A DNA stretch of 64,000 bases. Source: Warburgia ugandensis. Its lineage: Eukaryota; Streptophyta; Magnoliopsida; Canellales; Canellaceae. The position numbers and the translations under genes were made by a program. Positions 32,880-64,000 of this stretch are shown one piece after another (the first letter of the stretch is position 1; each line of letters starts with the position of its first letter). The stretch spans positions 1,398,001 through 1,462,000 of the forward strand of contig CP141135.1 of the NCBI GenBank assembly GCA_035236585.1, given 5' to 3'. The notes under the pieces are model-generated. The model was not told the DNA's origin. It made no database searches and was given only the letters and a program-made list of their open reading frames with translations.

Positions 32880-33204
32880 TGCTTGAGAGGAATTGTCGTA
32901 TTGCTACGGTAGACAATAGCCCTTCGGACAATTAGAGCTAGCTAGATGGTTTAAACTGCTTCGGCAGGCTTCCTTTGCACCAGTCTCGAGCAGTGAGATT
33001 GAGACCATTATATATTTTTATTTTCACAGAAGTTGTCCCAGCTGTTCATACCACCTCTGCCCTAAATGTTGCTGGAACATCCAGACGGATACAAGGAAAA
33101 TAGGGATCAAACGGAGATGGGCTACTATCCAAATGATAATGGCAGAGCAGATACAGTATCCCTTGTCCTCAATACGAAACTAGCGGCTGCAGAAATTGCT
33201 TTCT
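32880..33204 (+). pseudogene. Relic of a JMJ25-like zinc-finger exon
   Basis: From 33025 the frame reads HRSCPSCSYHLCPKCCWN, matching [18 protein letters not shown] of the truncated copy at 50141; downstream 'cagtatcccttgtcctcaa' matches 'cagtattccttgtcctcaa' there. Upstream, gagaggaatt (about 32886) and the agatggtttaaactgcttcg block (32948) match gagaggaatt (48370) and agatggtttgaattgcttca (48422). So the piece derives from a JMJ-like locus equivalent to 48.37-50.37 kb with most of the middle deleted. No intact frame remains. Confidence 0.75.
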
Positions 33205-33632
33205 AAAGCTAAAGCATGCTAGGCCTACAACCTGTTTGATAAATGGTGTCATTCTTCTTTATTTCTCTGTTTTTCTAAAGTCGAACGCCTACACAGCCCA
33301 TGAGCTTGTTTTGCTTGGACATGAGAAGGCATTTACTCCATTCTTATTGTATACTACCTAATCCTCTACTGCATGCAGAACACAATGCATGCAGCCGTTG
33401 CCTGTAATGTCTATATGAAAGCTAAAGCATGCTAGGCCTACAACCTGTTTGATAAATGGTGTCATTCTTCTTTATTTCTCTGTTTTTCTAAAGTCGAACG
33501 CCTACACAGCCCATGAGCTTGTTTTGCTTGGACATGAGAAGGCATTTACTCCATTCTTATTGTATACTACCTAATCCTCTACTGCATGCAGAACACAATG
33601 CATGCAGCCGTTGCCTGTAATGTCTATATGAA
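33205..33632. repeat. 213-bp perfect tandem duplication
   Basis: Two copies, about 33205-33419 and 33418-33632, appear identical base for base (period 213), running from gctaaagcatgctaggccta to gtaatgtctatatgaa. Identity means a recent event, or a local assembly error. Confidence 0.9.
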
Positions 33633-34512
33633 TCAGTGGGGTCCACTTGCAGTTAATGTTTTTCTTACATGGGCAAGGAACCGGACGATAAACGAAATGT
33701 GAGCAGTCGAAACTGCAAACTGTGGCCTGGTCTTTCCGTCATCCAAACCTTTCACTTTGGGTAAGCATGTTATTAATCGTTCATACATAAAAGCTCCCAA
33801 CCGTTAGATTATCCGAATCCTCAGACGCGTTATCATATCTAAGCTTCGAGCCATCCAATGGTGCATCTCTTCCCGTCCGAGTCATCCATAATGAACCATC
33901 CAATCAAATACACGGTTGTGCATTTAAGGAGGGAGCTTGGAAGAAAGTAAATCGTAGCCGCCGGTTTCTCTAGATTCTAGAGAACGGGGTTGTGATGTGA
34001 CCCCCTAGAATTTTGCCAGTTATTGTCCGGGAAAACTTTTCCCACTGAGTGGGCGTTTAGTGGGCGTTTTCTGTCTACTTTTCTCTAGGAAGAGACTTGC
34101 TGTAGGGGACGTTTGACGGGTAGCCCGATAAAGATAATTCTCTAATTAATGACGTTTTGGGTTGTGAAATTGATATTGACACTCCTAAGTCTGTCGTTTG
34201 TGGCACCTGGCCGATAACACAAGCGGGGAGGCTACGAGCATAATGATCCACAAGCGGGTCCTGCTCTAGAAATTCATCACGACCATCCATTACTCTACCA
34301 TGTTATGGATGAGTCAATCATAATCCTCGCCGTTGGATTTGTTAATGGAGGAATTCCAGGAGTTCCAATTAATAATGGTGGTAAAACCAAAGCCACTTTT
34401 CTACGCGGCGTCCGCTTCTAGTAAGCTGTCGCCACATACTTCCACCAACTCTACTCCCGTTTTCTTCACTTTTAGAAACCGGATTTGCAGAACCAGAAGA
34501 AGTTTCCCGGCA

Positions 34513-37500
34513 ATGGTGGTGAAAGGGAAGGATTCTACCAGGTTAAAGACTGTAAGTAGAAGTCTGTCCTTCTCTTTCTACTTCTTCTGTCCGATTTTGT
34601 GGAAGTTTCATTTGGATTTGTTGTGGGTTTTGGGTCTCAGAGAACTGTAGGGAAGGAGAAGGGAGGAAACACGACGTGCCATCAATGTAAGAGGAATGAT
34701 AAAGGAAGGGTGGTTTGGTGTGGCAAGTGTGGAAGGAAGCGCTATTGCTTGCACTGCATGCGAAGATGGTCAGTTCCCCCCACCCCCCCCTTCTCTCTCT
34801 TTCTCTACCTACTAAGGAAATTAATCGGTGGATGCCATTGTTGGGACATAGCTCTCTGAGATGGTCTTATGAGATAAACGGCTTTGATCATCGAAACGAT
34901 GGGGTCCACATGGCATTTTCTCCCTCTCTAGATTACTGAGTGGTCGAATGAAATTCGACGGTGGATTACTTGTGGGACCGGTTGTTTTGGCGATGACGAT
35001 CCTAAGCCATTTGTCTGGTAGGTCCCGTTCTAGGTAGTCCGGGTCAGCCTCTCCCTCCCTCCCCCGGAGGATTCCGGATCATCTTGGCCGTTGAGCAAGT
35101 GGACCAACCGTAAAGATGATCCGCTTACATCCGATGAAGACCGTGAACGGGCCCTACTGGTGGCCCCCTTGGCTACTGTTTGATACTGTGGGGTTCACAT
35201 GCTCGCAGTTTGTCCACTTCTTTCTTTATTTTTAAATTTTTATTAAAATTAGGACTGCTAGGACGACGTGCGTGTGTTGGTGAGGCACGTAACACTGTAA
35301 CAGCCTCCTTGCTGCACTATATTTCAAAAGGTGTGGAGAAAATTATTTCCATGTGACATTAATACCCTTGTCTTTTCCATTAATGGCATGCATATCCTTA
35401 GTATACCATTAGCAGAACTAGGAGCTCCCTTCCGTTGGAGTTTCTTTATGGTGGGCAACAATGCAACTCGGCTGAGCCTCGTCTTGTGGAGGCAACTCCA
35501 CTAAGCCTTATGCATTGGATGAGCCTAGCTTTATTGTTTTGAGGTGTTGTGCTATGTTCCATGAAGTAGAGTTAGGGAGCAAAATGAGATTGCAAGACTT
35601 GCTTTGCCGTTCGTCAAAGCGTCTGAATTGCTTGGCCAATTGTTGGTAGAGTTGGACAAAGTTAGGATTCAAGTGAGTAATTGGGATTGATAAATTCTTA
35701 TCAACTCAAAAGCAGCTAAGGACTTGTAGCATAGTGGTTCAATAATTAGCTTTCTCCGAGCTAGATGATGGGTTTGAGGAGGCTCATGAGTGCATCTTAA
35801 TGTTCAGAAAGGTGGGAAGAAAATCTCATAGTTGAGTAATGACCATCGGAAGTTTTTAATAGTTATATTGAATATGGGACATTTGTAACATGATGGAGGT
35901 TTTTCTGCCAATACTGTGAATCTGCCTCACCATAGATAACCGTCACCCGTAATCACGCTGCAAATGCTTAACAATTATGGAGAAAAAGTTTTCAAATGAT
36001 ACATTCTGCGATTAAGATTTTCTAAGAGGATAGAGAATAGCATCTACAATCCCTTGTGGTTGTTGTTGTATACCTTATATATGTATTGCCTTTGAGGGAA
36101 AATATTTGTTATTTAATTGAATGGTCATGAGCATGGTTTCTGCAAACCAGTCAATGTGAATAAGTGTAGTATGAGCCGTGCCCACTAAGAAGCTTTGTGG
36201 GAGAGTTTTATTCGAGTACAAATATGGTGGTGAAACAAGTGTACAGAATGCCTACATACCTTCTTTTGATGTCTGTTTTTCAGGTGGGAGCATAAAGGTA
36301 GAGAAATTAATGCAGTATCCCTCTTTCATAGCAAAGCTTTATGAAAGAACTATGAGGTATATACACCTCTTGCATTGCTTCTCATGTAATATAGATGGGC
36401 ACCATGTCACGTAGTGTTTATAAGGAAAAAATTGCAGAGTAGCATGGTAGCAAGGATCTAATCTGGAGTAAATAGATTCTAGGCAGCACATGCCAATGTC
36501 TAAAAGTTGAAAAACTTGGAGATCTCCATTTTAGCAATCGACTAAACTAGAAGCTCAAAGTGGACAATATGCCATAGATGAGGCTTGATAAGTTTATTAC
36601 AAGTTAGATCCCAAACATGTAATGTACTAGACTTGGTCTTGGTCCACTGATGATGCCAAAGCAGCCAAACAGAGATTGATCAATGCTGCTCATGCGATAA
36701 ATAGTAATGACCTTGAGGTTGGAAGGCAACTATGACATTAGCATAGCATAGAAGCTCACAGTAAGAGGCTTCTGGTCCTCACAGTTTCCACTTAGGGACT
36801 TGGAAAAATTGATGCATAACTCCATAATATCATGTGGGTGACAGCTGTTTGGTTATGTCAGCGATAATCATTGTGAAGTAAAAAAAAAAAAAAAAAAAAA
36901 TTCCATCTATTTCCTTGTGGTACTTATTCTCTGATTTCTTCAAGAATATTGTTGAAGCACACCTACACTGGCTTTTTGTCAAGGTTGGTTTCATACATCT
37001 GCAGGACCAGCTAAAGACTTGTGCATTCTGGTACCTGTGCTGCTATTTTCCAGTGGAGATAATATGCAGAATTACACAAGCACTGCTACTGTATTTTCCA
37101 TTCAAGATTTATAACCGGCCATTCTCATCTAATTGTTGCATCTGGATAGAACTGTGCAGTGCTTCTTGTCACTTTTTTATACTTGACCTTGCAACTATCA
37201 CCCTTATCTTTTAGTTGCTTGCAAGTTGCTCAATCATGCTCACATTATTGTTCATCTTGTAGAAGGAAGTCATCTCAGTGAGGAGACTCTTAAGGCAAGA
37301 TTGTTGGAGTTGAACACAATGCCATTACCCTTGTATTTTATCTTACTGTGTAACTCTTAATTCCTTCACATGTTTCGAGTGAGACGTTTACTTTTAGAAC
37401 TTGTGTGTGTATCTTTAATAGCTTGTTTATCTTAAATAGAACTATTCTAAAAATAAAAAAAAAGGAAGCCTGGTACAAGAAGCTGCTGTGTATTGGGGTC

Positions 37501-40500
37501 CCTGGGAAGTGGCAGACCACAAGGGGTCTATGGTATGCAGCCATACCTTGCATTTTGCAAGAAACTGTTTCCACGTCTCGAATATGTGACCTCCAGGTTA
37601 TGGCAACAGCTCAACCATTGCAGAACTGTTCTACTTTATTTAATTTATTCATATGACTTGTGGAAATTTGTCTTTGCTAACCTTGCGCACTCTTTTTATC
37701 ATGAATTATGTAGGTATCCACTGTTGTCAGAGGTAGACTTTGCAGAGTGTTGCCCAGTCTGTCGTGGAAATTGCAATTGTAAGGCATGTCTGCGTATTGA
37801 CAAAGTAGTGAAGGTAAGTTTTCGGAGTTTTCTAAAGTGTGTTAGTCTTTGAATTCACTGGTGTAATGATTTGGCTTCCTATTCAACAGATAATAAATAG
37901 TAACCTTTTTCTTTGTTCAGCTGAAGAATCCAGTAAGAATTGTATCCGAAGTTGATAAAAAGAAGCACTCTTGTTATTTGATACTTAAACTTCTTCCATT
38001 CCTGAGAGAAATAAATCGAGTTCAGAGAATGGAAAAAGAGTTGGAAGCCAAAATTCAAGGTATCACTTACATTGCAATGGACCTGGTATCCTGAATTGTT
38101 TCCTGACTTTAGTTTAATATGACTAGGAAAATTACCAGCCCAAGTGGAACTTCAGCATGAGGTTTGCTTTGGCGAGCGTATGTACTGGTAGGTCTCACTT
38201 TCTAAAATATAGTCACTTCTATTCTGCAGCTTGCTTAGCATTTTTTACTTTTGCCGGTACCTATATCTGTTGACGACTAATTGTATCATAATGTTTGGGG
38301 CAGTAACAACTGCAAAACATCCATTGTTGATTACCACAGAAGCTGTCCAAACTGCTCATATGATCTCTGCCTTAGTTGTTGCCGGGAAATTCGGGGAGCA
38401 CACCTACAGGATGATGGCAAGGCAGTAGATCCTGTTCCGAGGACTAATGGGCAAAAGATAAGTTCAGATGCAGCTGTTACGATAAGCTCTTCAGATCAAT
38501 TTCAGTCTGTTACAAATTGGAATGTCAGCCATGATGGTAGCATCTGTTGTCCCCCCAGGGAAATGGGTGGTTGTGCAGGTTCCCTTCTGATTCTGAAGTG
38601 TATCTTCCTGCAAGACTTTGTCACTGAGTTGTTAAAGAGAGCAGAAGAAATAACATGCGGCAATGAATTTTGTGAAGCGCCTGATGAATTTGCTCAGTGT
38701 TCATGTGTTAACCCAGATGGCCAAATTGAATTTGGTAATTTCCAAGAAGCAGCTTGTAGAGAAGGTTCTAAGGACAATTATCTATATTGTCCTACTGCCA
38801 CACATGTTCAACTTGGGGGGCTGGAGCATTTCAGGAGGCATTGGGTTAAAGGTGAACCGGTGATTGTACGCAGCGTTCTTGATCTGACATCAGGCTTGAG
38901 CTGGGAGCCAATGGTTATGTGGCGTGCATTTCGTGAAATGAGAAATTCCAAGACTTGCTCAGAATCTTCAGTAGTGACAGCTCTTGATTGCCTGCTTTGG
39001 TGTGAGGTTACTTATATTACATTCCTCGTGTTTTGTCATGAAATAAATGTTCATCATTCTCATCATCAAAGCCTTATCCTGATTAGGGGTCGGCTACGTT
39101 GGCTACACAATTCTTGTTCCACTATTCCCCTTTATTGAGAGTCGTGACTTCATTTAGTCCAAAAAGTTTTTAAATCTTTTCTCACCAATTCTACTTTTGG
39201 GCCTTCCCCTTGCCCTTTTACCTCCTTTGACTTGGATTGACTCAATCCTTCTAACTGTTGTTTTCGGTCTTTGTTGGACATGTCCAAACCATCAAAGTCT
39301 ACCCTTCGTCATCTTGATACCTATTGGCGCTACTCCTACGTTTTCTATAGTGTTTTCATTTCTAATTATATCCTTTCTAATCTTGCCACCTGTCCATCTC
39401 AACATCCTCATTTCGGCTACACTCATCCTTTGTACATGCTGTTCTTGAACTGCCCAACACTCTGATCCATAAAGCATGGCTGCCTTATAGCCATTCTCAC
39501 TATTGTTTGTATTTTAGATTAGATTTTATCCTTATTTTTGTCATTTGTTTGATGAACGTGGTTCTTGTTATAATATAGCGACCTTGTCTCTGAACTTCCA
39601 AGCGGGTGACATATGTTGTAAACATGCGTAATTTTTGCTAATGCTGCAAGATACCTCAGTGGCATGTGAAGCAGTCTACTGTTTCTCTCCTATTGGGCAT
39701 AACTCTTTCTTATATTTATGTGTAAGGTCGTAAAGAGACTGCTTATTTTTAATCTTGAGATTTAGCGTGTTGGCTATTTTCACTAGTTTAGAGTGCATTG
39801 ATCATGTTGCAATCGTGTTTCTTGTTTTGGATGTTTGCCTTCGGTGAATAGAGGTATTTTGATTGGGACTAAACTGAAATTGAGTGGGGGAACCAGCATC
39901 CTAGTTTGAATGATTTATGGAAGAACTGATTGATGTTTCTGTCTAATGGGCACTTGATTAGGGGTTCTCTCTATAGAAACACACACACGCATTATGTATT
40001 ACATGTGTGTATATTATGTATATTAATATTCATAATTATGCAGTCCATATTTCTAATATTGTTCTGTTGCAATATTGGGCACTTTTCTTGTTTTGTACCC
40101 TTTTTTTGCTGTTAATTGCTCATGCATAGTTGTTTGTAAATGGGTGAATAATAACCTTGGTAACAATTTTCAGGTAAATATTAATCTTCATGAATTCTTC
40201 AAAGGATATATGGAAGGACGAACGTCCAAAGATCTTTGGCCTCAGATGCTCAAAGTGAGCGATTGGCCCCCTTCTAATTTCTTTGAGGAGCGATTACCCC
40301 GCCATAGTGCTGAATTTATTGATGCATTGCCATATAAAGAATATACGGATCCCAGCTCTGGCACTCTTAATCTTGCTACAAAGCTGCCACCAGAAGCCGT
40401 GAAGCCAGACCTCGGGCCAAAGGCATACATTGGTTATGGGTTTGCTGAAGAGCTAGGAGTGGGAGACTCTGTTACAATGCTTCATTGCAATGTGGCTGAT

Positions 40501-43500
40501 GCGGTATTTTAGTTCTCTCTTATTTCTCTGTCTGCACTTTCAAACCAGTTCTATTGCACTGTTTAACTTCTGCCACAGTAACCTATTTTCACCTGTTGTT
40601 TCCTCTGATTGAATATCAATGCATGGAACTGTCCACCGCAAACATTGATTCATATTTGATTCTTGGTCATATTTGCTGAATTGCCCTTTAATTTGATGTT
40701 TCCTAGGTGATGTTTTATAATCGTACGATATGACGCACTTAGAATGCTTGATGAACTTTACATATCTATCAATAAGTGGAGATCCAATTCAGGACGTTAT
40801 AAGCCCCTCGTCTTGGCTTTCAAAATTTTGAGCCAAGTGGGAGTGAGTAAAAATTCTATGCATTCGTTTCCCTCAAAAATATATTAATTGTTGTTACTTA
40901 AGATATTCCAGTGCTTCAGCTGTTCTTTTGAAATGTTTGTAAATATTTTGACTTTTTTAATTATCGTACTTGGAGTTATGTGTGTGCAAGCTTGAGAAAA
41001 TGCTATAATGTTTGAAGAAAGAGTTCTTGTTTCTCTTGTTCCAATATAGAAAATGGTTGACTTCCCTCCCATCTATGCCTTTTGTCTTACGAGTCTCTTC
41101 ATGTTACTGAAATTCCCTCATTTACTCTGTCAGTGAATGCACGCCATGATGAATGTTTGGTCAAGAGCTGGGTTATCATGTGTCAGTGTGAATCCCCGAT
41201 AAAACTAGCTTTACATTGTTAGTGAATGCACACCATCATGAATGTTTGGTCAAGAGCTGGGTTATCATATGTCGGTGTGAATCCCCGATAAAACTAGCTG
41301 CATGTATATGTGTCATCCAAGAGGGCACATAGGTCTTTAGAACAGCTTAATTTGATATGTCTCTCAAGCTTCCACTCTAACAGGTTGTTTTCATTCTCTA
41401 TTATGTTCACAATATTCAGTGATTTATTGTGAAATATGGGCTGCAATTTGATATGTAAGTGGTTGGTCATTTTGATTACTTCACTGCTGCCGGTCCCAAG
41501 CTCGGATAAAAGTGGATGGTTTTGCAATAGGTGCCAGCCGCAAGTAAAACCCTTGGCAACCCCATGCATAAATTGATTTTGAATCCCTCAAGCTAGGGAA
41601 CAAGCTAGGGTGTTCCCATAGGCTACACCCTACATTTGATCTTGGATGTAGTAGAAAATGTACAAGGACTATTAGGGCACTCCCTCGGAAGCGACACTTT
41701 GCATCGGATCCTGGGTGCAGTAGGGAATGTGCAAGGGCTAATAGAGTGTTCCCTCGAAAGCAATGTGTTACATCAGAACTTAGAAAGTATGCATTGGTTC
41801 CCGCACCATTTGGGAAGTGCACAAGTAATTAGGCTAGGTTAGGAGGGTAAAATTCTTATCACCGCATGGAATATATGAACAGGACACGTAAAAGTTTGGA
41901 GTTAGTAAAAATGATGAAACATAAGAGTCAACATTGCTCATATCTAAGAATCCAAGTATAAAGGGGCTTAAACTAGAGTCATCAATGGGTGTAAGTTCTA
42001 GTAAGTAGTAAAGAATAATAATAGAATTGGTGTAGGTATAGTGGTCAATAAAGAATTAAAGAATAAAGTTGTAGACATTAAAAGAACCAGTGATAGAATT
42101 ATATTAATGAAACTTGTTTTGAGAGATAAGATCATAAATGTTACAAGTGCATACACACCACAATTAGGGTTAGAAGATAGTCAATAGACAATTCTGGAAA
42201 GATATGGAGTGAGTTGTGCAAGAATTTTCCAATGTAGAGAGGATATAATATGAGCATACTTTAATGGTAGTCTTGCGTCAAGTAGCTAGCTTGCAAGGGT
42301 GAAGCTGAAGATGATTTTAATGAAAATCATTAAAATATTAGAGGAAATTTAGGGATAGCACCAATAGGTAACAAGATGAGGGAGATTAGACTTAGATGGT
42401 TTGGACATGTTCAAAGGAGACCAACAACGGCACCAGTTAGAAGGAGTGAGGCAATACAAGTTGAAGGTTCTAAAAGGGCAAGGGTAAGGCCCAAAAGAAA
42501 GTGGATAGAAGTGGTGAGGAAAGATTTAAAAACTTTGGGACTAAATGAAGCCATGGTATTTAATAGAGTGGAATGGAGGAATAAGATTCATGTGGCTGAC
42601 CCCTAATTGGGATAAGGTCTTGATGATGATGATGATGACTTTAATGGGAATGTAGACAAAGAAAAGGAAGGATATGATATGGTACGTAGAGGGTATGGTA
42701 TTGGAGAAAAAAAGTGAGACGAAGGAAGCAATCATCGATTTTGCTTTAATGCACAAACTAGCTATAACAACGCATACTTTAAGAAGAGGGATGAATACTT
42801 ACCTTTAAAAGTGGACCATATAAAAGCTAAATAGACTTTTTTCTACTTAGGAATACCAAAAGATCAATGTGTAAGGCTTGTAAGGTGATACTCGATGAAA
42901 GCCTAATCTCACAACATAGGTTAATGGTTATAGATATCTACATTAAAATAAGAAAGAAAGGAAATAAACTTAATAGGTGAGAAGATAGCATCACGCAAAA
43001 ACAACTTGAGTGTAGAAGGAAATTGAAAAAATGAAGCAGAAGTAAATACCACGTGGACTAATATGGCCTAATCCATTTAGAAAGTGGCAAATAATATCCT
43101 AAAGGTAAAAGACAATTAGTAAAGGAAACTTGGTAGTGCAGTAAAAAAGTGTAAAAAGTTATTAAAGAGAAATGTATGTGTTTTAAAGCATATCAAAGGA
43201 CTAAAAATAATGAAAATTTTGAGAAATATAAAAATGCTAAAAAGGCTGCTAAGAATGTAGTAACTGAGACTAAACTTAAGGCATATTGTGATCTCTATAA
43301 TAGATTAGGATCAAGAGAAGGTCAGAAAGATGTGTTTAAAATAGCAGAAGACAAGAGTAAGGACTTAGACTAGGTTAAGTGTATTAGAAATTAGGGCCAA
43401 AGGATACTGGTCAAAGATAACGAGATCAAACAAAGGTGAGACAGTTATTTTGAAAATTTACTAAATGACAATTATTTGTGACTATAGGGATTGAAAGTAC

Positions 43501-46500
43501 CGTAAACCCAAATAACACTGGACATTATTGGTACAACTGTAGGATTAGAATACTTGAAGCTATAGAGGCCTAGAAAGAGATGAAATCAGGAAAGGCTTTA
43601 GGACTGGATGGTATACCATTAGAGGTTTGGAAGTATATGGAAGATACATTGAGTGGTTTGATTGACTAAGTTCTTTAACAAGATTGTAATTTAGAAGAAA
43701 AATGCTAGATGAATAGAGTGAGAGCTCTATTGTACCAATTTATAAGAATAAAAGAGACATTCAAAGTTGCACTAGTTATTGTGAGATCAAACTTATGAGC
43801 CATACCATAAAACTTTTTGAAAGAGTGATTGAGAAGAGATTGTGGCATGAGACGGGTGTATCAAAGAACTAGTTTGGTTTCGTGCCTAAGAGGTCTATCA
43901 TGAAAGTTATTTTCCTACTTAGACAATTGACAGAGAAATATAAGGAGAGGAGGAAGGATCTTTGCATGGTCTTTATTGACTTGGAAAAAGCTTATGATAG
44001 GATTCCGAGAGAGTTATAGTGGTGGGTGTTGGGCAAGAAAGGGGTTTTATGGGGGTGTGTAGACATAATTAAGGATATATACGAGGGAGATATAACAAAT
44101 GTTAGGACCACTAGCATAGAGACTGGTGATTTTTCCTATTGCTATAAGATTGCACCAAGGATTGGCATTGAGCTCGCACTTTTTCACATTAGTTATAGAT
44201 GAGTTAATAAAACATCTGTACGAGAAGATTCCAAGTTGCATGTTATTTACTGATGATAATAAGATAAGGGAGGGCTAAACACAAAACTAGAGATCTAAAG
44301 AGATGCATTACAATCCAAAGGATTTAAAATTAGCTATATTAAGACAGAAATAGAGTGTATGGAATCCAATTTTAGCAAGGAGAGGAGTAGGAGTAGAGCA
44401 TTAGTAAAGATTGATAACCAAGAAATGCCCCTTAAAAGAACACTTCCGATAATTGGGATCGATAATTCATCAATGTGGAGAGATTGAGAGGGAGGTTACC
44501 TAAGCATTCAATGTGTATTCTTGAATAGTCTCATTTTTCAATTATTCAACCATTTCATTTTACCAAGATAGCCAACATTTATATGTTTTGATGCAATAGA
44601 GAATCCAAGCGGGTTGAAACAAATGGAGATGTGCCTTTGAAGTTTTGTGTGATTGGCAGGTGCTACTCAAACTAAAAGAAAAATTATATAGGATGGTTGT
44701 AAGGCTGGCTATGCTCTATGAATCAAAATGTTCGGCAGTTAAGGACAACATGTGCATAGGATGAGTGTTGTTGAAGTCCAAATGTTGAGATGGACGAGTG
44801 GTAAGACAAGAAAAGATAGAATTAGAATGAGAACATTAGAGGAAACTTGGGAGTAGCATCAATAGGTAATTAGATGAGGGAGATTAGACTTAGATGGTTT
44901 GAGCATGTCCAACGGAGACCAAATATGGCACTGGTTAGAAGGAGTGAGGCAATCCAAGTCAAAGGTTCTAATGGGTAAGGAGAAGTGCCACGATGGTGAG
45001 GATAGAAGTGGTGAAAAATGATTTAAAATTTTGGGGATGGAGGGACAAAATTCATGTGCCAACCCCTAATCTGGATAAGGTCTTGATGGTGATGATGATA
45101 AGTTATTTGCTAATTTAGGATAACATTGCTCCCATAAATCTCTTCAAGTGGATGCCAAACTTTGGGACTTTTGAAACCACTGGTACATCACATGAAATTT
45201 TCTTAAGTAAAATTCTTGTTGCACTTGCCAGTAGCATAGGCATTTCAACTTATTTTTTCATACTGATTTTAAGTCTCCAAGCTCATTATTCCCAGTACTC
45301 TGTGGCTCAGGTTTATATTTTGATGCATAGCACTGGAGTTGTTTTAACTCCGGAGGTGCTTTCCAACATTGATAAGCTGAAGAAAACATATTGTGATCAA
45401 GATCAAGGAAAACATCTCGCTGCTGTTCAACAGAGGCAGGCAAAGGATGGTGATAGATCCACAGATCTGTCAGTAGAAAAATTTGCAGTAGAGGTCGATG
45501 GTATCCAGTCAAATGCTGTAACTGCTGATGGCAACAATGAAGAGAGAATTCTGAACTCTGTGGATGGAATCCAGTCTGTTTCCTTCACCCTTAATGCTGG
45601 GTCCAAAGATAGAAATGAGAACTATGTCAGAGAGGCAGCTGGTAGATGCCAAAATATTTCTAAAGTTTATAAGAGTGTGCCAAGTCAGAAAATTAGTGAT
45701 GTAAAGAGCAATCTGGGTGAAAAATCTGCAATTTCTGAAAATAAGGTGACATACAAATCAATACCAGGAGGTGCTCTTTGGGACATTTTCCGAAGACAAG
45801 ATGTTCCTAAGTTGCAGGAATATCTTAGCAAACACTCTAGAGAATTCAGACATGTCAAAGTGGAGGAGGTAAATACATGTGGTGAAAATAAAGTGATGAT
45901 TGCTATTAATAACTGCATTGCAATTTACTCCAATTGTTTAGCAGGTTGTTCATCCTATTCATGATCGCAGTTTCTATTTAACTTTCAAGCACAAAAGGAA
46001 GGTCAAGGAAGAATTTGGTATTTTCTTAGCTTGCTATGTCTTTGTTCCAATTCCTTGTCTTTGGTTTTCAGTGTCTAGAGTGGCTTCTTGGGTTGCATTA
46101 ATTTATGTGAGACTTAAAACTAACAATTCTTAGATTCTTCTTATTTGTGCAGGAATTGAGCCATGGACATTTGTGCAAAAACTTGGAGAAGCGGTCTTTG
46201 TTCCTGCTGGTTGTCCTCACCAAATAAGAAACCTAAAGGTTTGAAATTCATGAATTTGCTTATATAATAAACATTAGCTCATAGTTATCTCTTATTGCTC
46301 TAGAGGAAAATAGAAACCTATTTGAGGTGCTCGTGTACAGTGATTTCAGCTTTACAGAAATTAATACACCACTGAATTTACTATTAACTGGAATCAGTTG
46401 CCTTAAACTTTATTGTTTGAAACTCCTTTTCCTTTTTCTAGTCATGTACAAATGTCGCAATGGACTTTGTTTCACCTGAAAGTGTCCAAACGTGCATCCA

Positions 46501-48699
46501 TTTGACTGAAGAGTTACGATCACTTCCCCATGATCATTGTGCTAAGGAAGACATACTAGAGGTAGACCTTCTCCTTTGTAGTTAATTTAATGTGCTTCCC
46601 TCCCTCTATCTCTCTGTATCTCTCTTTCTTTTTATATGTACGTATGCACACATGCGCCCATCCATAAATCCAGTTTTATCATGAATTTGGAGCGATTACA
46701 TGTATGATTCTAAAGTCTGAGTTCAGATGCTCTGTCAGTACCAAGTGCATGCAGCTAAAAGGATTTTACTCTCTATCTGATTTTGGCTGCACCGGGATTG
46801 TGCGTATGGCTGGGAAAATACTGTAGCTATAGTCGTTAGCTGCAGTGGCAGAGCCTGAAATTTTAAGTCAGTAGAGTCTTATAATAACCATTAGAGTCCT
46901 GGTAAGAGTCAGTGCTCATGGGTGTGCAAAGAAGTTGATGCTTCACTTTTTCATAAATACCAACTTCTTTTGAAAGATCAAAACGCATCATCTTGTTCGG
47001 AATGCCTTAGGTAGGCTGGATGCCAAAGTTCAAGACCAGTGGATGCTTATAGCCTAAGTTATAGTTGTTGAAATTAGATCCACTAATATTTTTTAACTTT
47101 TTCAGGGTATAAAAATACAGATGGCTAGGATCAGCCAAATGAAATAATTTTTCATGGGTCACCTATTTTGGGGACACTAAACATGATGAACGGTTTAGAT
47201 CTTCAAAAGAATTAAGCATCCACAGAAAAGTAGACTGTCTACTTCTTTGCACGCCCATGAGCTCTGACTCCTATCAAGACTCTAACCATAAATATAAAAA
47301 TACATCTTAAGAAAAAAAAATATTTATTTGAACACAATAAGATGTTGAAATAATATTGACATATTTGTACTATATTTGGAAAATATCAAGACCATCAACA
47401 ATTTAAGAACAGTAGAAATATCAAATACTATAACTTATAAGTTAAAACTAGTGTATTTATAATACTTTACTATATTTGGACCTACGAAATCAAATAATAT
47501 TAGCCATATAATGTCGTAAAAGTGAAAATTTATAAATAATTTTTGTGGGGCCTTTTCTGAGTGGGCTCTTAAGTGGGTCTATTTATAATCAAAATTAATA
47601 TATAATTTAGGAATCTTAAAATTTTGAGTGGGATCTCAAGACCCCACTACCATGCATGGGCACCCACCCATGATTAGCTGACAACATGTTAAGTTGTCCT
47701 GGATTATGTATGTACATTTCTGTTACTGATTTCATAATGGATTTATTAATTCCAGTAATTGATGCAGGTGAAGAAAATGATTCTTTATACAATCAGCCAG
47801 GCTCTAAATGATCTACAGAATATCCATACTCCAAATGTTGTCCCTAGTAGCCCACCTGAAAATGCCCGTGATTGTATACTCTTGAGTAAAGAACGTCAGT
47901 CGCTTATTCAGCATTATCGGACTGAGAAAGACAAACTAGAGGTAGACCTGTCGCTATCATCCATCCTCCTCTCTATGCATATGAATTTTCCTCTACGGAT
48001 TAATTACCATATGCATGTTTGTCTGCATGCTTTTACTGGTAATTAGGGGTAGATGCCAATATGTTATAACCACTAACTGACCCTATAAACTCATCTGCTT
48101 TCCCTGCATTATCTTTATTATTGAGTCCCTTATATTTGCATTTCACTTCAGCTCCCCAAAAAATATTTATGAGTGCATCCATTATTCTTTTCTTTAAAAT
48201 GGTCCACGAGTGCCTAGCCTAAGTGTTCTGCATGCATCTACAGGATAACTGTTGTTTAAAGAAGACAAGGTAACATAATTTCTTTCCTGTTTGTTTGCAA
48301 ATGCATTCTTAGTATATGTATTTCTCTATCATTAATTAGATTATGTAATTTATTGGTATGTCAATCATGAGAGGAATTAAATATTACTCAACTAGCTGAC
48401 AGCTCTTTCAGATGCAAGAAAAGATGGTTTGAATTGCTTCAGATGGCTTCCTGTGCACCAGACTGATGTGTTATAGAAGTGAAGCTTAGATTGCTGAGCT
48501 GCCTATTATCTGTCATGCACGTGTTTATCAGATATAAATGTTCTTGTGTGATCCTTTCTGTCTGTATTGCTTTCTTCACCAGGTTATGGATGCTACAAAT
48601 ATATCCATCCTTAATGTTGAACTGGACTTTGTTTCTCCTGAACATCTCCATGGGTGGCTCTTTGGCAACAGATCCGTGTACATTTCCTTGTATTGCTGA
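34513..48699 (+). CDS. JMJ25/KDM3-like JmjC protein, gene A, 13 exons deduced
   Basis: Exons deduced: 34513-34551, 34641-34768, 37714-37813, 37921-38059, 38127-38187, 38304-39006, 40174-40503, 45311-45868, 45945-46017, 46153-46238, 46442-46561, 47768-47941, 48583-48699. All join in phase to 875 aa with GT-AG introns. Family role: nuclear histone H3K9 demethylase. Domain order: Cys-rich zinc finger ([34 protein letters not shown]), a second finger ([16 protein letters not shown]), then JmjC from [17 protein letters not shown] to [16 protein letters not shown]. The first Fe ligand His and the distal His (GCPHQ) are present, but the Asp of HxD is Asn (HCN, codon 40489-40491), so demethylase activity is doubtful. 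The ATG at 34513 aligns with gene B's at 58501; a longer frame from 34345 is possible. There is no WRC or AT-hook. The last exon is the least certain part. Confidence 0.82.
34769..37713 (+). other. Intron 2 of gene A (2.9 kb)
   Basis: Donor aagatg|gtcagt, acceptor tatgtag|gtatcc. It contains an A20 tract near 36880 and an Au SINE at 37450. An open frame at 36178-36414 has no homology that I recognise and no supporting splice sites. Confidence 0.6.
37450..37621 (-). mobile_element. Au SINE in gene A intron 2, with TSD
   Basis: Minus-strand, near full length: aagcctggtacaagaagctg, ggcagaccacaaggggtcta, gaaactgtttccacgtctcg, gacctccaggttatggcaac. It is flanked by agaactattcta (37438-37449) and agaactgttcta (37622-37633), a 12-bp duplication with one mismatch. 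Confidence 0.8.
39055..39490 (-). mobile_element. RTE LINE 3' fragment in gene A intron 6
   Basis: In reverse orientation it begins with the LINE tail (catcatcaaagccttatcct, then attaggggtcgg). On the minus strand, 39477-39292 encodes [19 protein letters not shown] and [13 protein letters not shown], the conserved end of RTE ORF2. It is strongly 5'-truncated. No clear TSD was found. Confidence 0.8.
41132..41300. repeat. 89-bp tandem duplication in gene A intron 7
   Basis: Two copies (41132-41220 and 41221-41300) share agtgaatgcac, then gaatgtttggtcaagagctg and gaatccccgataaaactagc, with a few differences between them. Confidence 0.85.
41484..45101 (+). mobile_element. RTE LINE copy 2 in gene A intron 7
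   Basis: Same family as the copy at 6258. The 5' end is gctgccggtcccaagctcgg. Reverse transcriptase contains [17 protein letters not shown] (near 43880), [16 protein letters not shown] (near 43971) and FTDD where the catalytic FADD belongs (near 44248). The 3' end is cccctaatctggataaggtc plus GATGAT repeats (45064-45100). It is interrupted by a nested younger LINE (42268-42637) and by an ~85-bp AT-rich insert at about 44505-44590. Stops and frameshifts throughout; it lies in sense orientation in the intron. No matching TSD seen. Confidence 0.83.
42268..42637 (+). mobile_element. Younger 5'-truncated RTE LINE nested in copy 2
   Basis: Flanked by actttaatgg (42258-42267) and actttaatgg (42638-42647), a 10-bp duplication, and the host LINE resumes exactly after it. 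It retains an open end of ORF2 (42376-42606, [20 protein letters not shown] and onward to HVADP and a stop) and a clean GATGAT tail. Its better-preserved frame fits a later insertion than the host copy. Confidence 0.8.
46891..47285. mobile_element. TIR element (MITE-like) in gene A intron 11
   Basis: About 45 bp at 46891-46935 (ttagagtcctgg, then gctcatgggtgtgcaaagaa) is inversely repeated at 47241-47285 (ttctttgcacgcccatgagc, then ctctaa), giving a 395-bp element with no coding capacity. The superfamily is unresolved because the flanking TSD is not clear. Confidence 0.7.
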
Positions 48700-48810
48700 A
48701 AGAAATGTTCCAAGCCTATCCCTTCCTAGTTCCTAAATCATTTCTTTCTCTTGTTTTATGTGTTGGTGCATTCCTATATTCATATTGTAGCATGTATTAT
48801 TACATAAGAA

Positions 48811-48989
48811 TGATAGCCTTGTTGCAATGGCAGAGTTGTAGCCATGTGACCTGGAGTCACGGGCTTGAGACGTGGAAACAGCCTATTGCAAAAATGCAAG
48901 GTAAGGCTGTGTACTATTGATCCTTTATGGTCCGCCTCTTTCCTAGATCCCACATGTGGGGGCTTTGTGCACCAGGCTGCCCTTTTTTG
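48811..48989 (+). mobile_element. Au SINE, near full length
   Basis: Runs tagccttgttgcaatggcag, tagccatgtgacctggagtc, gtggaaacagcctattgcaa, gtaaggctgtgtactattga and tgcaccaggctgcccttttt. It lies just downstream of the proposed last exon of gene A. Confidence 0.82.
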
Positions 48990-49240
48990 TACCTACATGA
49001 ACACATGGGGAATCCTATAAGTGTGACTAGATGCAAATTAATTTGGAGAACAGAAGTCAAAGGTAGGACACTTGTATTCCCCTGGCTCAATTGCTTTCCT
49101 ATAAGCTGAAACTAAGCTTTTCAAGTATCAGTCTACAACGCTTGGCCAATTTACCTGCTTATGTCGAGTTGTTTGTGCTCATCAGGCATGTTTTTGTGAT
49201 CTCTTTCTTATGTATTTGTTGAATCTACACTGTGAGGCAG

Positions 49241-49309
49241 GTAAAGAGATTGATTCTTCATGCCATCAAGCAAGCAGTGAATGATTCACAGGAGCCACCC
49301 TCGCCAAAG
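49241..49309 (+). pseudogene. Duplicate JMJ C-terminal exon remnant
   Basis: Between a gaggcag acceptor and a caaa|gtgagt donor the frame reads VKRLILHAIKQAVNDSQEPP, clearly homologous to [18 protein letters not shown] in exon 12 of gene A. It could be an alternative last exon of gene A or left over from the duplication that made the truncated copy downstream. I favour a remnant. Confidence 0.5.
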
Positions 49310-49606
49310 TGAGTGCCTTGGAAATTTAGCAAGCATAAGCTTTGACATGGTTATCATTTGTGCTCAGCGTCTGTGCAGGCTTTGGATCTGTGTATTTATG
49401 TTTTTCAATGACTTAAGTTTAGTGCACATAATCACAATCACAGAACCATCCCGTGATACCTTGGTGCTTGCTGTGATAAAACGACTTCAAAAAGATCTGA
49501 ACCTTGAAACATGAAGCAAACGTTGCAGCCTGAGATTACCCCGACCCATGTGGCTTACTGTTGCAAAATTAGTATACCTTTTGAATTTTGTTTGGATCAA
49601 GCGCAG

Positions 49607-50465
49607 GTGTCCTAAGATGTTGGAGGCTGAAACTGCAGGGACGTGCTCAGAACGTCATGCTAATTGCAATTTCAATGTATGTGAGGTATGTTTCCACAAA
49701 AATCGGTTGCGTCAACCCTTTTTTTGTAAATAATCACATCAGATCATCGCCATAGATGGTATGTAATTACTTATTTGTTCGTGCTAGGACTCACAAAGGC
49801 AGACAAAAAGAGCTTGCAATTTGATAGATCAGCTTCTTCCAATTATGGAACCAATACAATTTGATCAAACTATCGAGAAGACAATAGAGGCCAAGATTCA
49901 AGGTATAACCTCTCTGATTCTAGGCATCTTCACTTAACTCTTCTAACCGGCATTCTCTTTTCAATTAGGAATGTTACCATTGGAAATGAAGCTTCAACAG
50001 GCTACCTATCTAGGCGATGAATATGTATATTGGTAAACTTCTCTTCCCTGAAGATCCCTGGCCATTAATATGCATTTTGTGTGTCAGTGGTTTCTGCAGC
50101 ATACTCATGATTTGACCCAAACCTTGTTCCTTTGGAGCAGTGACAGTTGCCAAGGATTTATTCTTGATTTTCATAGAAGTTGTCCCAACTGTTCGTATGA
50201 CCTCTGCCTCAAATGTTGCTGGGATATTCGTGACACTAAAATTTCAGGTGTATATAAGAAAACCGCAGAGCAAATGGAGATGGACTCGCTAAGCGGACTT
50301 GGGCTACTAACCAAAGAGGAATTGCAGGCTAATTACAGTATTCCTTGTCCTCAAAAGCAAACTAGAGAGTGTGGGGATTCTTTTATGGAGCTGAAGCATA
50401 TATACCCAGAAAACTGGATTCCCTTGGTCACAGACTGGTTTCAGAAGCAGAAAAATGCAAATTAG
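49607..50465 (+). pseudogene. Truncated JMJ25-like copy (zinc-finger exons only)
   Basis: Four exons with intact GT-AG sites match exons 3-6 of gene A: 49607-49685 (CPKMLEAETAGTCSERHANC, where several Cys of [13 protein letters not shown] are lost), 49788-49902 (LLPIMEPIQF to EAKIQ), 49969-50032 (MLPLEMKLQQATYLGDEY) and 50141-50465 ([18 protein letters not shown], second finger, stop at 50463). They join in phase with each other. The exon before (first zinc finger) and the whole JmjC domain are missing. It could still be transcribed as a short finger-only product or spliced onto gene A; called a pseudogene because of the missing parts and damaged first finger. Confidence 0.7.
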
Positions 50466-58500: not shown

Positions 58501-61500
58501 ATGGCGATTACCGGGAAACCACTTCCTCCGGACATTCTCCGTTGCATCCGGAGCGACGGGAAGGGGTGGAGATGTAGTTGGCAGAGAATCGAGGGAAAAA
58601 AACTCTGCCAAAATCATTTTGCTCAGTTTTGTGGTAGGAAGAAATTCGAGGAAGGAGCTAGGGTGCAAGGAGTTCCACTGAGGGGAAGGAAGATGAAGAA
58701 CCTGGAAGTTGGGGGAGTAATGGGTTGGAAAGTGAAGAAGCTTAGAGTTCAGCTGAAGAAGAAGAAGCCAATCGAAATGGAGGTTAAGGAGCACGAAGAG
58801 AACGATTCTGGCAATGTTGAATGGGTAATAGATTTTTCTTCTTGTTCATATTCTTCCATGTCACGTTTTTGCTGTATTGCGGTGGCGTTATTGATATTCT
58901 GGTTCTGGCTTTTGTAGCGGTTTTAGTTGGATTTGATGTGAGTTTTGTTATGTTTTCCTGCTTCTTGACCTTGTAAGTAGATTAATCTTCTTTTTCATCT
59001 CATGTCTATACGTTCATCTCTATGCCACGATAGTGTTATATGTTTCTGTCCCATTTTGGTGGCATTTTGATATGGATTTTGTTTTTTGCTTCTGTTTCTG
59101 CCTCTTTCTCCGTGTGTGTGTTTTTCTGAGATAAGTTTATCTCCGTTCCAGTAGTATTATCTGCTTTCCTGTAGCATTTTGAGATGGATTAGAGGTTTTT
59201 TTTTTTTTTTTTGGGTTTCTGGTTGTGGCTCTCAGGGAGTTGGAAGGAAGATGGGGATAAGGAAGATTGAGGAGTTTAAGGAGATGGAGAAGAAGATTAA
59301 GGAACTCGAGAAGAAGATTGAGAAGCTTGAGAAGGACTCCAGCAGTGTTCGCAGGGTAGCGAAATTTCTATATTTTTGTTGTCTGTCTCTTTGTTTTTCT
59401 ATACTTTTGTTTCTTCCCAGTATTTTATTTGGTTCCTATGTCTAATCTCTGATAAATTTTGGTTAAGATTGGACATGAGTGTTGGTTTTTTGTTTCTGTT
59501 CTTGGTTCTCAGGAAGGTGCGAAGAAAAGAGGGAGAAGCAAGAAACAGAAACTTGAGGAGAAGGATTTGGTGAGATTTCGGAACACAGTTGATGAAAGTT
59601 TAGAGATTAAGAAAGTGAAGGAGAAGGACTCTAGCACTGTTAAGATCATCATCATCTTCTACTTCTCTTTCGGCTTTTTTCTATTTCATTTAAAGAGTGC
59701 TCTTTGTTTTAGTCTTTTGTTTTTATCTCATGTTTGTAGCATTTGGATTGTATTTGATGTGGTTTTGTTTTTCGCTTCTGTTTCTGGTTTTCAGGGAGTT
59801 GGAAGGGAGAGATGGAAGAGGAAGATTAAGCAATTTAAGGAGTTGGAGAAGAAAGATTCTAGCAGCAGCTTTAAGAGAGTAACTGGATTTCTGCTTCCTT
59901 CTTCTTATCTGCTCCTCTATGTCATATTTCTGTTGCCTTCCAGTACTCTTACTTTTCTTTCTACTTCTTTTAGTTTGGATTTGACCTGGTTTTTCTTTCT
60001 TTTCCATTTTCGGTTCTCAGGGAGTTGGAATAAACAGAGGAAGATCTATGAAACAAAAATATGAGGAAAGGGATTTGGTTGGAGTTCAGGAAAATGATGG
60101 AATAGTAACGAGTCTGGAAACAAAGAATGAGGTGAAAGAGAATAATTCCAGCAACGTTTGTGTTGTTTCATCTTCATCTTCTGTTTTTTTTTTTTTTTTT
60201 ACTCTTTTGTTTGAATAATTTATTTTTTTTTTAGTCTTTTATTTTCTTTTGTCTGATTTTGTTATTAATTTGATTTGGATTTGATTTAGGTTTTGTTTTC
60301 TTCTTCTGTTCTGGTTTTCAGATAGTTGGAAGGAAGAGAGGGAGACCAGAGAAACAGAAGGTTGAGAATATGCATGTAAAAGAGAAGGAATCCATCACCC
60401 AGAAAAGAGTAAGTAGATTCATCATCATCTGCATCTCCGGCTTCTTCATCTTCTCTGTTTTTTCTCTCATTTTGAGTATTGTTCCTTGTTTGACTCTTTT
60501 GCTCTCTATTATCTGATCTTCGTAATATTTTAACTCTCTGGCCCTCAGAGTAATGTGGCAGAGGAGGGAGGAAAGAGCAAAATGTGTCACCAATGCCAGC
60601 GAAATGACAGGGGAAAGGTGGTTTCCTGTATGAAATGTGCAAGAAGGCGCTATTGTTTGCGCTGCATGCAAAGATGGTATCTCTCTCTCTTGATTCTTTT
60701 CTGATGAGTCTCTCTCTAGATTGGTACAAGTGCAACCGAATTTTGGACTTATTGTTGTTTTGGTGATCAAATCTATCTATTTTGGTGGGTCCCAATGTTA
60801 GACTGGCTGCACTCCAAAAGTGTCATTCATCAGACAGCCCTAGTCATCCTTTCTTTCCCTCTGTGAGCAATGGGGGGAAGAATATTGTGATTAGTATTTC
60901 TTTTTGTTTCATTGTACTGTTGTATTCTGCTGTAGTTGGGTTGCTCCTTGTTGATTGGGGCCGTTGATCTGGTGAACTGCCAGTGCTCGTTGCCTGTGGT
61001 ATGGTCCTTCTTATCACCTTCTTACAATCAGATGCAAAATGAGTTAAAAATGTGGTTGTCATTGTTATCGTCATCATCATCCTCATCATTATCATCATCA
61101 GTGGAGTCTGTTGGTACGGTCTTCACATACTCATGAGGATTAAAGACAGATCCCAAAGCACGTATGCTTTTGTTGAATTTCCTATTCTAGATCCCTGAGG
61201 ATGGTGATTATGTTGCTGTAATAGGTGAGGTTCATAAAAACAGAATTGATAGCAATTATTCTTGTGGGGTCCATCTGCTATCAGTTTTCTCTGCCTCTGT
61301 CTCTCTCTCTCTTTAAAATTTCTTGTGTTAGTTTTTCCTGGTTCTTCTTTGCAGTTGCAAATTGCTAATTTGGCTCAAACTATGGTGGGGAATGACTTTA
61401 ACAGCCACCCTATTGCATTTGCACCACATAAAGGGCAGCCTTGTGCACGAAGCTCTTGCGTATGAGGAGTCTAGAGAAGGGGCGGACCACAAAGGGTCTA

Positions 61501-64000
61501 TATATTGCATTTGCACCACATCACTGTAGTATTTTGTTTATGACAATAGTACTATTGTCTCTTCCATGAATAACACCGGTAAGGTGACATCAGGGAAAAC
61601 TTTTATGCTAATGTGTCTTGATATGGGATAGAGCAAGACTGTTTTGTAGCTATTGGTGGAAGCCTATATTGATTAAGACGGATTTGGCAACACATATGCC
61701 CATGGATCCTATGACGAATCACTAGCATCACTATGAATGAAGCCTGTTTCTTTTGATCTTTTACATGGCTGTTATTGACCTCCACCATTCATTGGCATCT
61801 GAAGGTACAATTTGGTCCAACCCCAGTCATTTGTTAGGGCTTTTGTTAGATAGACCATGCCCAAAATCTTCTCCATCGAATGTTCCTAGCTTTTGTTGTT
61901 TTTAATGCTCCAAAAGTGGACGCTGAACATTAGTTTGCACTGGACGAAACTAGTTTAGTTTTCTCAACTGCCTTTTGCTAAGTATTGGAGTAGCTATAAC
62001 TAATTTAGTTTTCTCAACTCCCGTCTGCTGAGAATTTTGAGTAGCTTCGTGATCATGACAGTTGAAGCTGCATGCTTGTCTCCATATCATTTTCTGAGTA
62101 CTATTACTAGAACATTTGGCCGATCCCTAATCGGGATAAGGTCTTGATGATGATGATTATTACTAGAACATTTCTTGTATGCATTCATAGTATCTTACAG
62201 ATATGTTAGAAGTATATGTGAGCGAATGACTAGAACAAATTAAATTAGACGTGTATTTCTAAATTAAGGTTATACTTGCATTGGGATATGATTAACAGGT
62301 AGCCAAACATATCTGCTATCATATAATGTCATACTGCAACTATATTTCCAACTACTTTGATTTACTATAGTTGCTGTAGAAGTCTTCTCCTAACTCCTGC
62401 TTGTACTCCTTCCAATTTTCTTTTCTTAGTTGCGAACTTGCAGAACTGCACACCTAACCAGCCTAATAGTTTCGTATCTAGCCAGAAGTGAATGCTATTT
62501 TTCATGAAGCGTGGTATCAGGGGTATGTTAATGACTGCAATTCAATACTTTCTGTCAGTTCTCAGAATTGCTCATTCTCAAGTAGGAGCTGCATCTTAGG
62601 TACTGCATGATCCTGTTATATATGTTGACTCCTTCAGAGCTGCGTTACATTAACTCATATCTTGTTGTTTCTTGCAAGTCACTCAGCCATATTGAAGTTA
62701 TTTTTCATCTGATAGAAGGATGTCAACTCAGTGAGATAAGGTTACATCAAGATCTTGATAGTTGAGAATGCGTTTAGTTTTGCATCTTGTCTTACTGCCC
62801 TTTGCAAGTTCTTATTTTCAACAGATTTTGATAGCTGTGGTTTCTGTTGGCTTTTATTGGTTGCTTTATCAATGTGACCTTTTAGCATCAATAACCTAAC
62901 TAGCAATATACTCCTTTTGAGTTTACTATGACATTCAGTAGTATTTTGGTATGCATTTCAGTCTTAATTCATGTGTCTTTTGACAGAAACTTTATATTCT
63001 TGACTTTGGTATTTATTTCAGGTATCTTGGTCTTTAAATAAATATTTAGATGATCTAATTTGGTTAGATGATGTCTGAAATTTCTTTCGGTCGTTTTGCT
63101 AACCCTTGCGAAGTCTTTGTATGCATCATAAATTATATAGGTATCCTCTCTTGTCTGAGGCAGAATTTGCAGAGTGTTGTCCTGTCTGTCGAGGAAATTG
63201 CAACTGTAAGGCATGCCTGCGTATTGATACAGCACCAAAGGTCTGTTTGTAGGTTATTCTATGGTGTCACTAACAGACAGTTTACTGATGCAACCACTTA
63301 AGTTCCTATATAGATCTTGTAACTTGCATCTTTATACACCTGCAGAATTCAGGAAGATTGATATCCGAAGTTGAGAAAAAAGAACATTATTATTATTTAA
63401 TATGTAAACTTCTTCCATCCTTAAATAAAATAATTCAAGATCAAAGAATGGAGAAAGAGTTAGAAGCCAAACTTAAAGGTACCAGTCACCCGAAATTGTC
63501 TCTGGCATCTTCAGTTAGTTCTTGACTGCCATTTTCATTTGACCAGGACTACCACCATCTGAAATAAAACCTAAGCAAGAGGCTTGCTCCAGTGAGCGTA
63601 TATACTGGTAGATCTCTCTTTCCTACATTATAATTACTTACAATTTTGCAGTTTGCTTAGCAGCTTTGACTTTTGCTTATATCTTCAATTATCAAGTTCT
63701 GATTCTGTCATGATGTTTGGAGCAGTGACAACTGTGAAACATCCATTGTTGATTTCCATAGAAGCTGTCCAAAATGTTCTCTTGACCTCTGCCTTAGTTG
63801 TTGCTGGGAGATGCGGGGACGCAACCTATGGGGTGGTGAGGTAGTAGATATCTGCTATCCTATTGAAAGGGAGGCTTATCATCAAGATAGAGGTCCTATT
63901 CAAAAGACTAATAGACAAAACAGGACATCATATATTCACGTTAATAGGATCCCTTCACGGCAGTTTCAGCCAGCGACTGAACGTAAAGCCCTCCATGATG
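58501..64000 (+). CDS. JMJ25/KDM3-like protein, gene B, 5' part (cut by window edge)
   Basis: Exons deduced: 58501-58824, 59236-59355, 59513-59638, 59795-59878, 60021-60155, 60322-60408, 60549-60676, 63141-63240, 63346-63478, 63547-63607, 63726 to past 64000; all in phase (524 codons visible). It starts with a WRC domain, C-X9-C-X10-C-X2-H at residues 15-39 ([18 protein letters not shown]), a plant DNA-binding or nuclear-targeting motif. Five small exons follow with charged coil ([12 protein letters not shown]) and AT-hook-like cores ([20 protein letters not shown]), then the Cys-rich finger ([34 protein letters not shown]) and second finger ([18 protein letters not shown]). Exons 7, 8 and 10 have the same lengths (128, 100, 61) as in gene A. 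An upstream in-frame ATG at 58405 would add 32 aa. The JmjC domain, and so catalytic status, lies outside the window. Confidence 0.85.
59030..60410 (+). repeat. Tandemly amplified AT-hook/coil exon-intron units in gene B
   Basis: Exons 2-6 all begin and end in phase 0; four of the five begin with a (G/I)VG peptide, and most end with a D/E-K-[DE]SS-type peptide. The intron stretch before most of them repeats a common string of the type ttggatttgatntggttttg, then a T/C-rich run ending ctggttttcag or ttggttctcag. A further copy of the intron string at about 59065-59100 has no exon. This points to repeated duplication of a ~250-bp exon-plus-intron unit. Confidence 0.7.
61062..61105. repeat. (ATC)n-rich microsatellite
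   Basis: gtcatcatcatcctcatcat and similar, imperfect. It could be the seed of, or derived from, the GATGAT tail of an RTE LINE in reverse, but no LINE sequence adjoins it. Confidence 0.7.
61430..61502 (-). mobile_element. 73-bp Au SINE 3' fragment with 19-bp TSD in gene B intron 7
   Basis: tattgcatttgcaccacat occurs at 61411-61429 and 61503-61521. The 73 bp between are the SINE 3' end on the minus strand (aaagggcagccttgtgcacg, then ggcggaccacaaagggtcta), 5'-truncated. The perfect duplication makes it a young or well-preserved insertion. Confidence 0.9.
62102..62173 (+). mobile_element. 40-bp RTE LINE tail insertion with 16-bp TSD
   Basis: tattactagaacattt at 62102-62117 is repeated at 62158-62173. 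Between lie 40 bp (62118-62157): ggccgatccctaatcgggat, aaggtctt and GATGATGATGAT, the extreme 3' end of the RTE LINE family seen at 45060 and 42600. It lies in intron 7 of gene B. Confidence 0.9.

Follow-up and report, generated by a model that had tools for sequence, protein, structure and literature searches.

A KDM3-type gene of Warburgia ugandensis with asparagine at the second iron-ligand position of its JmjC domain

Plant demethylases of the JMJ25/IBM1 type (KDM3/JHDM2 family) combine a JmjC domain with Cys-rich zinc fingers, and KDM3 proteins with an inactive or damaged JmjC site are already known in plants. JMJ24 of Arabidopsis is reported to be without demethylation of histone H3 lysine 9 (H3K9) and to have E3 ligase activity (PMC8657654, PMC8896719), and it is described as counteracting IBM1 (PMC9029850). 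OsJMJ715 of rice, which has Lys changed to Ala at the 2-oxoglutarate (2OG) site (PMC8657654), is also reported to have no H3K9 demethylase activity (PMC8657654, PMC8896719). A family survey of Brassica and Arabidopsis describes a KDM3 subgroup IV with Gly and Glu in place of the His and Asp and Lys in place of the Thr (PMC8019318). Two further proteins, whose subfamily was not checked, are ZmJMJ19, reported to keep the third His only (PMC6444447), and BpJMJ03, in which Lys and Tyr are reported to replace the two His (PMC8555302). Among animal proteins, Hairless of the KDM3 subfamily likewise has its site residues replaced and is thought to act without demethylation (PMC3623819). Here we describe gene A, a KDM3-type gene in a stretch of 64,000 nucleotides from Warburgia ugandensis (assembly GCA_035236585.1, contig CP141135.1, positions 1,398,001 to 1,462,000 of the forward strand), which we call the window. 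Gene A has Asn where the HxD motif of the iron site has Asp. Since JMJ24, OsJMJ715 and the family surveys show damaged sites, it is a further case of a known kind, and a milder-looking one.

The second Fe(II) ligand position of gene A is Asn. At 40483-40491 the window reads CATTGCAAT, which encodes His550-Cys551-Asn552 in the first half of the JmjC domain (Table 1). With an E limit of 0.01, a phmmer search of the gene A protein against PDB gave seven distinct sequences, which were either KDM3B (best E 3.2e-53) or JMJD1C (E 7.1e-45), and both halves of the JmjC domain could be aligned with gene A. The alignments that we used cover five of the seven (three KDM3B and two JMJD1C sequences), and in all five the HCN of gene A faces an acidic motif, HLD in KDM3B and HIE in JMJD1C. 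The first His (550), Thr547 and the distal His789 are all conserved in these alignments. In place of the Fe(II) triad His-x-Asp/Glu...His, gene A thus has His550-Cys-Asn552...His789. The alignments leave the stretch between the JmjC halves unaligned, and no 2OG-binding Lys was assigned. An earlier note on this DNA had claimed both the change from HxD to HxN and a surviving distal His in the GCPHQ of exon 10 (46153-46238), and we found both as described, with the Asn opposite the acid of KDM3B and JMJD1C.

The gene A model was built by hand, with junctions picked from reading frames, GT-AG signals and homology to KDM3B and to gene B, a second KDM3 gene further along the window. The joined coding sequence (CDS) runs through 916 sense codons to a TGA with no internal stops. 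All 12 introns have GT-AG ends, which is partly by construction because the junctions were chosen looking for GT-AG. Exons 1 and 13 are the least certain, since they were placed from frame and signals alone, and exon 12 could alternatively continue past its donor site and end, within the following intron, at a stop at 48046. On the forward strand 3' of exon 12 there is a weak piece resembling the end of a JmjC domain at 48577-48642 (tblastn E 3.8), and the stretch used as exon 13 (49241-49312, also forward) is a second KDM3-like C-terminus. These two pieces may instead derive from a lost paralogue.

Pfam found the JmjC family PF02373 in the gene A protein at 54.6 bits (cut-off 24; residues 711-804) and zf-4CXXC_R1 at 23.1 bits, a marginal pass of its cut-off of 22.7. 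Exon 6 (from 38304) opens with a C4 cluster that follows the CHQC/CPVC region, and the alignment with gene B has all three clusters (CHQC, CPVC and C4) in common. With a JmjC domain and an N-terminal Cys-rich zinc-finger region both present, gene A is assigned by its sequence to the KDM3/JHDM2 family. At E up to 1, Pfam gave two matches for the modelled protein, with no RING family, the domain of E3 ligases of the JMJ24/OsJMJ715 type, among them, and no match to WRC, although the model may miss an upstream exon.

Table 1. Features of gene A, gene B and the related fragments in the window
Feature	Position	Strand	Remarks
Gene A, 13-exon KDM3/JHDM2-type model	34345..49312	+	hand-built; 916 aa, CDS 2751 bases
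Gene A exons 1-5	34345-34551, 34641-34768, 37714-37813, 37921-38059, 38127-38187	+	
Gene A exons 6-10	38304-39006, 40174-40503, 45311-45868, 45945-46017, 46153-46238	+	
Gene A exons 11-13	46442-46561, 47768-47941, 49241-49312	+	
Zinc-finger region CHQC/CPVC, zf-4CXXC_R1-like, gene A exons 2-5	34641..38187	+	Pfam, gene B alignment
Gene A exon 7, first half of JmjC domain	40174..40503	+	110 codons, phase 0 at both ends
Thr547, third residue upstream of the first His, matching the Thr of KDM3B and JMJD1C	40474..40476	+	alignments
His550-Cys551-Asn552 (CAT TGC AAT) at HxD/E iron motif	40483..40491	+	
Intron after the HCN exon, 4.8 kb	40504..45310	+	mostly filled by repeat; no alternative JmjC exon found
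His789, distal iron His in GCPHQ of exon 10	46218..46220	+	codon counted from exon table
KDM3 zinc-finger fragment upstream of gene A	33010..33217	+	every frame interrupted by stops over 33001-33230
KDM3 zinc-finger fragment between gene A and gene B	49608..50465	+	stop before any JmjC
Gene B, 5' part	58501..64000	+	ATG at 58501 assumed; window ends before JmjC domain
Gene B zinc-finger exons	60549-60676, 63141-63240, 63346-63478, 63547-63607, 63726 on	+	exon model, gene A alignment

Compared with the plant JMJ25/IBM1-type demethylases as a whole, gene A shares the JmjC domain, the Cys-rich zinc fingers, the first His, the Thr and the distal His, and differs in having HxN for HxD and in the missing WRC match of the modelled protein. 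We judge the likeness of gene A to the IBM1 group from motifs. With JMJ24 and OsJMJ715 it has in common that the zinc-finger region is retained in a KDM3 protein whose cofactor site is damaged; in OsJMJ715, however, the 2OG Lys is altered, whereas in gene A the Asp is the residue that differs and both His and Thr remain. The subgroup IV pattern, as given in PMC8019318, differs from that of gene A, which has His, Asn and Thr. Among the literature matches listed we found no plant KDM3 protein with HxN. The main text of the birch, grape, maize and Jatropha family surveys contains neither "Asn" nor "asparagine", and that of the Brassica survey does not contain "Asn".

The most likely consequence of the Asn, by analogy with mutants of the human enzymes and with the plant proteins JMJ24 and OsJMJ715, whose cofactor residues are altered, is a loss or strong reduction of demethylation by the gene A protein with its binding functions kept. 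Human KDM3A H1120G/D1122N, in which the second change is Asp to Asn in HxD, is reported to be demethylase-inactive (PMC4288188, PMC4991936), as are KDM3A H1120A and KDM3B H1560A (PMC3623819), and KDM3B H1560A with D1562A has been used as an inactive mutant (PMC13149330). The JmjC domain of gene A would be poorly metallated or catalytically crippled. The protein, if expressed, would not remove H3K9 methyl groups and would act via its zinc-finger and JmjC surfaces, in chromatin or partner binding. We believe it somewhat probable that gene A is an intact KDM3/JHDM2 member of an old tandem cluster, with the Asp of HxD changed to Asn, a crippled JmjC domain and a non-enzymatic role.

To look at selection, gene A was compared with gene B over 217 aligned N-terminal codons. 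Synonymous divergence (Ks) was 0.651 and nonsynonymous divergence (Ka) 0.247, so that Ka/Ks was 0.38 (bootstrap range 0.24-0.57, 1000 resamplings), a pairwise value that does not tell which copy was constrained. Over the first 173 codons, mostly the zinc-finger region, the ratio was 0.30. We also simulated neutral evolution of the reading frame (kappa 2, 1500 runs per K), ignoring frameshifts and splice mutations, the inclusion of which would lower survival. The 916 codons stayed free of stops in 157/1500 runs at K 0.02, in 9/1500 at K 0.05 and in 0/1500 at each of K 0.1, 0.2 and 0.33; the 389 codons of exons 7-11 did so in 21/1500 runs at K 0.1 and in 0/1500 at K 0.33. Because Ka/Ks is 0.38, and because a neutral frame would have gained stops with Ks halved per branch, selection has probably acted on gene A during most of the time that has passed since the duplication. 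The simulation is compatible with a relaxation that set in no more than about K 0.02 ago, and the selection result does not date Asn552. The suggestion that gene A has been structurally kept agrees with a model that is open over 15 kb and with the signs of past purifying selection in the N-terminal half.

These results also bear on whether gene A is in early decay, that is, redundant in a cluster with dead fragments and with Asn552 as its first visible lesion. We think this improbable. Two KDM3 fragments do flank gene A, its modelled protein is without a WRC match while an exon of gene B has one, and the C-terminal exon is uncertain, all of which would fit decay. On the other hand, the model has no broken frame or junction, and neutral evolution to K 0.05 leaves only the 9 stop-free frames in 1500, yet at K 0.02 there are 157.

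Several points weigh against an intact, selected gene with a crippled JmjC domain and a non-enzymatic role. Over the last 44 aligned codons, Ka/Ks between gene A and gene B is 0.80. The pairwise ratio of 0.38 averages both copies and the entire time since duplication, includes no JmjC codons and cannot date the Asn. The mutants KDM3A H1120G/D1122N and KDM3B H1560A/D1562A alter the His too, and among the literature matches listed we noticed no test of D1122N by itself or of any single Asp-to-Asn change in KDM3. Some 2OG oxygenases, such as AspH and the halogenases, work without an acidic ligand, so Asn at the HxD site does not prove inactivity. The abstract of PMC13168262 sets AspH against the usual triad. 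Conversely, JMJD1C is reported to show no H3K9 demethylation although its site is called conserved (PMC3623819), and site residues alone therefore do not settle activity either way. The loss of activity and the binding role of gene A are themselves predicted from its sequence. Finally, the retention of His550, Thr547 and His789 is what one would expect if selection on catalysis lasted until recently.

Some of these points could be taken to mean that gene A is still an active oxygenase whose iron site is made complete by Asn, by water or by some other residue, and whose activity may have changed. His550, His789 and Thr547 are kept, and UTY was first called inactive and later found active (PMC4140284). 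However, KDM3A H1120G/D1122N is inactive, though doubly mutated (PMC4288188, PMC4991936), and OsJMJ715, in which another site residue is altered, is reported without H3K9 demethylation (PMC8657654). We consider continued activity very unlikely.

The codon itself allows a simple origin. If the ancestral codon, which is unseen, was GAT, one G-to-A step would give AAT, and the changed G would belong to a CpG because the preceding codon is TGC. The observed/expected ratio of CpG is 0.418 in the gene A CDS, 0.437 in the whole window and 0.536 in exon 7, and TpG+CpA in the CDS is 1.30. The change could naturally have come about by deamination of a methylated CpG, although these CpG figures do not single that route out. 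We infer an origin by G-to-A at a CpG, as we do the loss of activity and the non-enzymatic role. The CpG context may also favour base-calling errors.

Since the other site residues that could be placed are conserved, the Asn may have arisen very recently or be an erroneous base. The functional gene would then have Asp, and the assembly would carry a very recent mutation, a minor allele or a base-call error, by G-to-A at a (methylated) CpG. One base change suffices if the ancestor was GAT, TGC GAT would make it a CpG transition, and the CDS is CpG-poor, as is the window. However, exon 7 is less CpG-poor, and the open 916-codon frame speaks against frequent indel errors. We regard this explanation as possible but unlikely.

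An alternative exon could in principle supply the Asp, as the earlier note had itself raised, and we looked for one in the window. The pattern T..H.[DEN]..D has a single match across the six frames of the 64 kb, which is gene A exon 7. Searching the window with gene A by tblastn (E up to 10) gave no second copy of exon 7; the sole other match to this exon lies at 6697-6575 (E 6.5). Since both the motif scan and tblastn found none, the window is without an alternative Asp exon, and this candidate is ruled out there. A transcript that skips exon 7 would keep the frame, because the exon is 330 bases long with phase 0 at both ends. No relatives of exon 7 were found in viral contigs (8 pattern-matched stretches, 0 confirmed), in prokaryote genome contigs (64 stretches, 0 confirmed) or in plasmids, and these collections, being viral, prokaryote and plasmid, are uninformative on plants.

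A long repeat has two forward copies in the window, at 6886-9995 and 41601-45099, which are 71-80% alike in pieces and LINE-like by eye only. The second copy takes up the greater part of the intron that follows the HCN exon. A related stretch lies inverted at 39051-39520.

Gene B opens with a WRC-domain exon (Pfam 48.2 bits, cut-off 28.6); short basic exons come next, and then the same zinc-finger exons as in gene A. At 59170-60411 (forward strand) it contains several short exon-like pieces that start alike (GVGRK.., GVGRE.., IVGRKRGRP..) in surroundings that are 68-76% alike in DNA. The last of these pieces is presumably AT-hook-like; its 42 tested residues had no Pfam match. Of the two KDM3 fragments, the one between the genes is open across four exon-like pieces. 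The upstream fragment matches 50156-50222 at 85% over 67 bases and 50300-50399 at 72% over 100 bases. A 215-base exact tandem duplication at 33205-33632 (33205-33419 and 33418-33632) is either very recent or an assembly artefact.

A tandem pair of KDM3 genes is described in Jatropha (PMC9023485), and for A. coerulea the number of KDM3 genes is given as up to 17 (PMC9029850), while the family surveys of birch and grape report no tandem JmjC copies. The earlier note had proposed that gene A became a scaffold or a competitor of gene B, which we keep as a hypothesis suggested by the sequence. In a more specific form, a fixed and selected HxN would have made a tandem KDM3 copy into a non-enzymatic reader of H3K9 methylation or a competitor that tunes its active neighbour, or else into an oxygenase that catalyses a different reaction at an iron site which is open or ligated by Asn. 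We would give this form little credence. If the Asn is fixed, nature has placed a variant with a single changed ligand next to its tandem paralogue, and with this pair the enzymatic and non-enzymatic functions of KDM3 in plants could be compared cleanly. If instead it reflects a base error or an allele of recent origin, its relevance is limited to annotation.

Two other reading frames in the window can be mentioned. On the reverse strand, 12156-14558 is an unbroken frame of 800 codons with pentatricopeptide repeats (Pfam PPR_2, 7 stretches). On the forward strand, an open frame at 20840-21529 matches a ribosomal L25-type family (Pfam 32.6 bits, cut-off 23.6).

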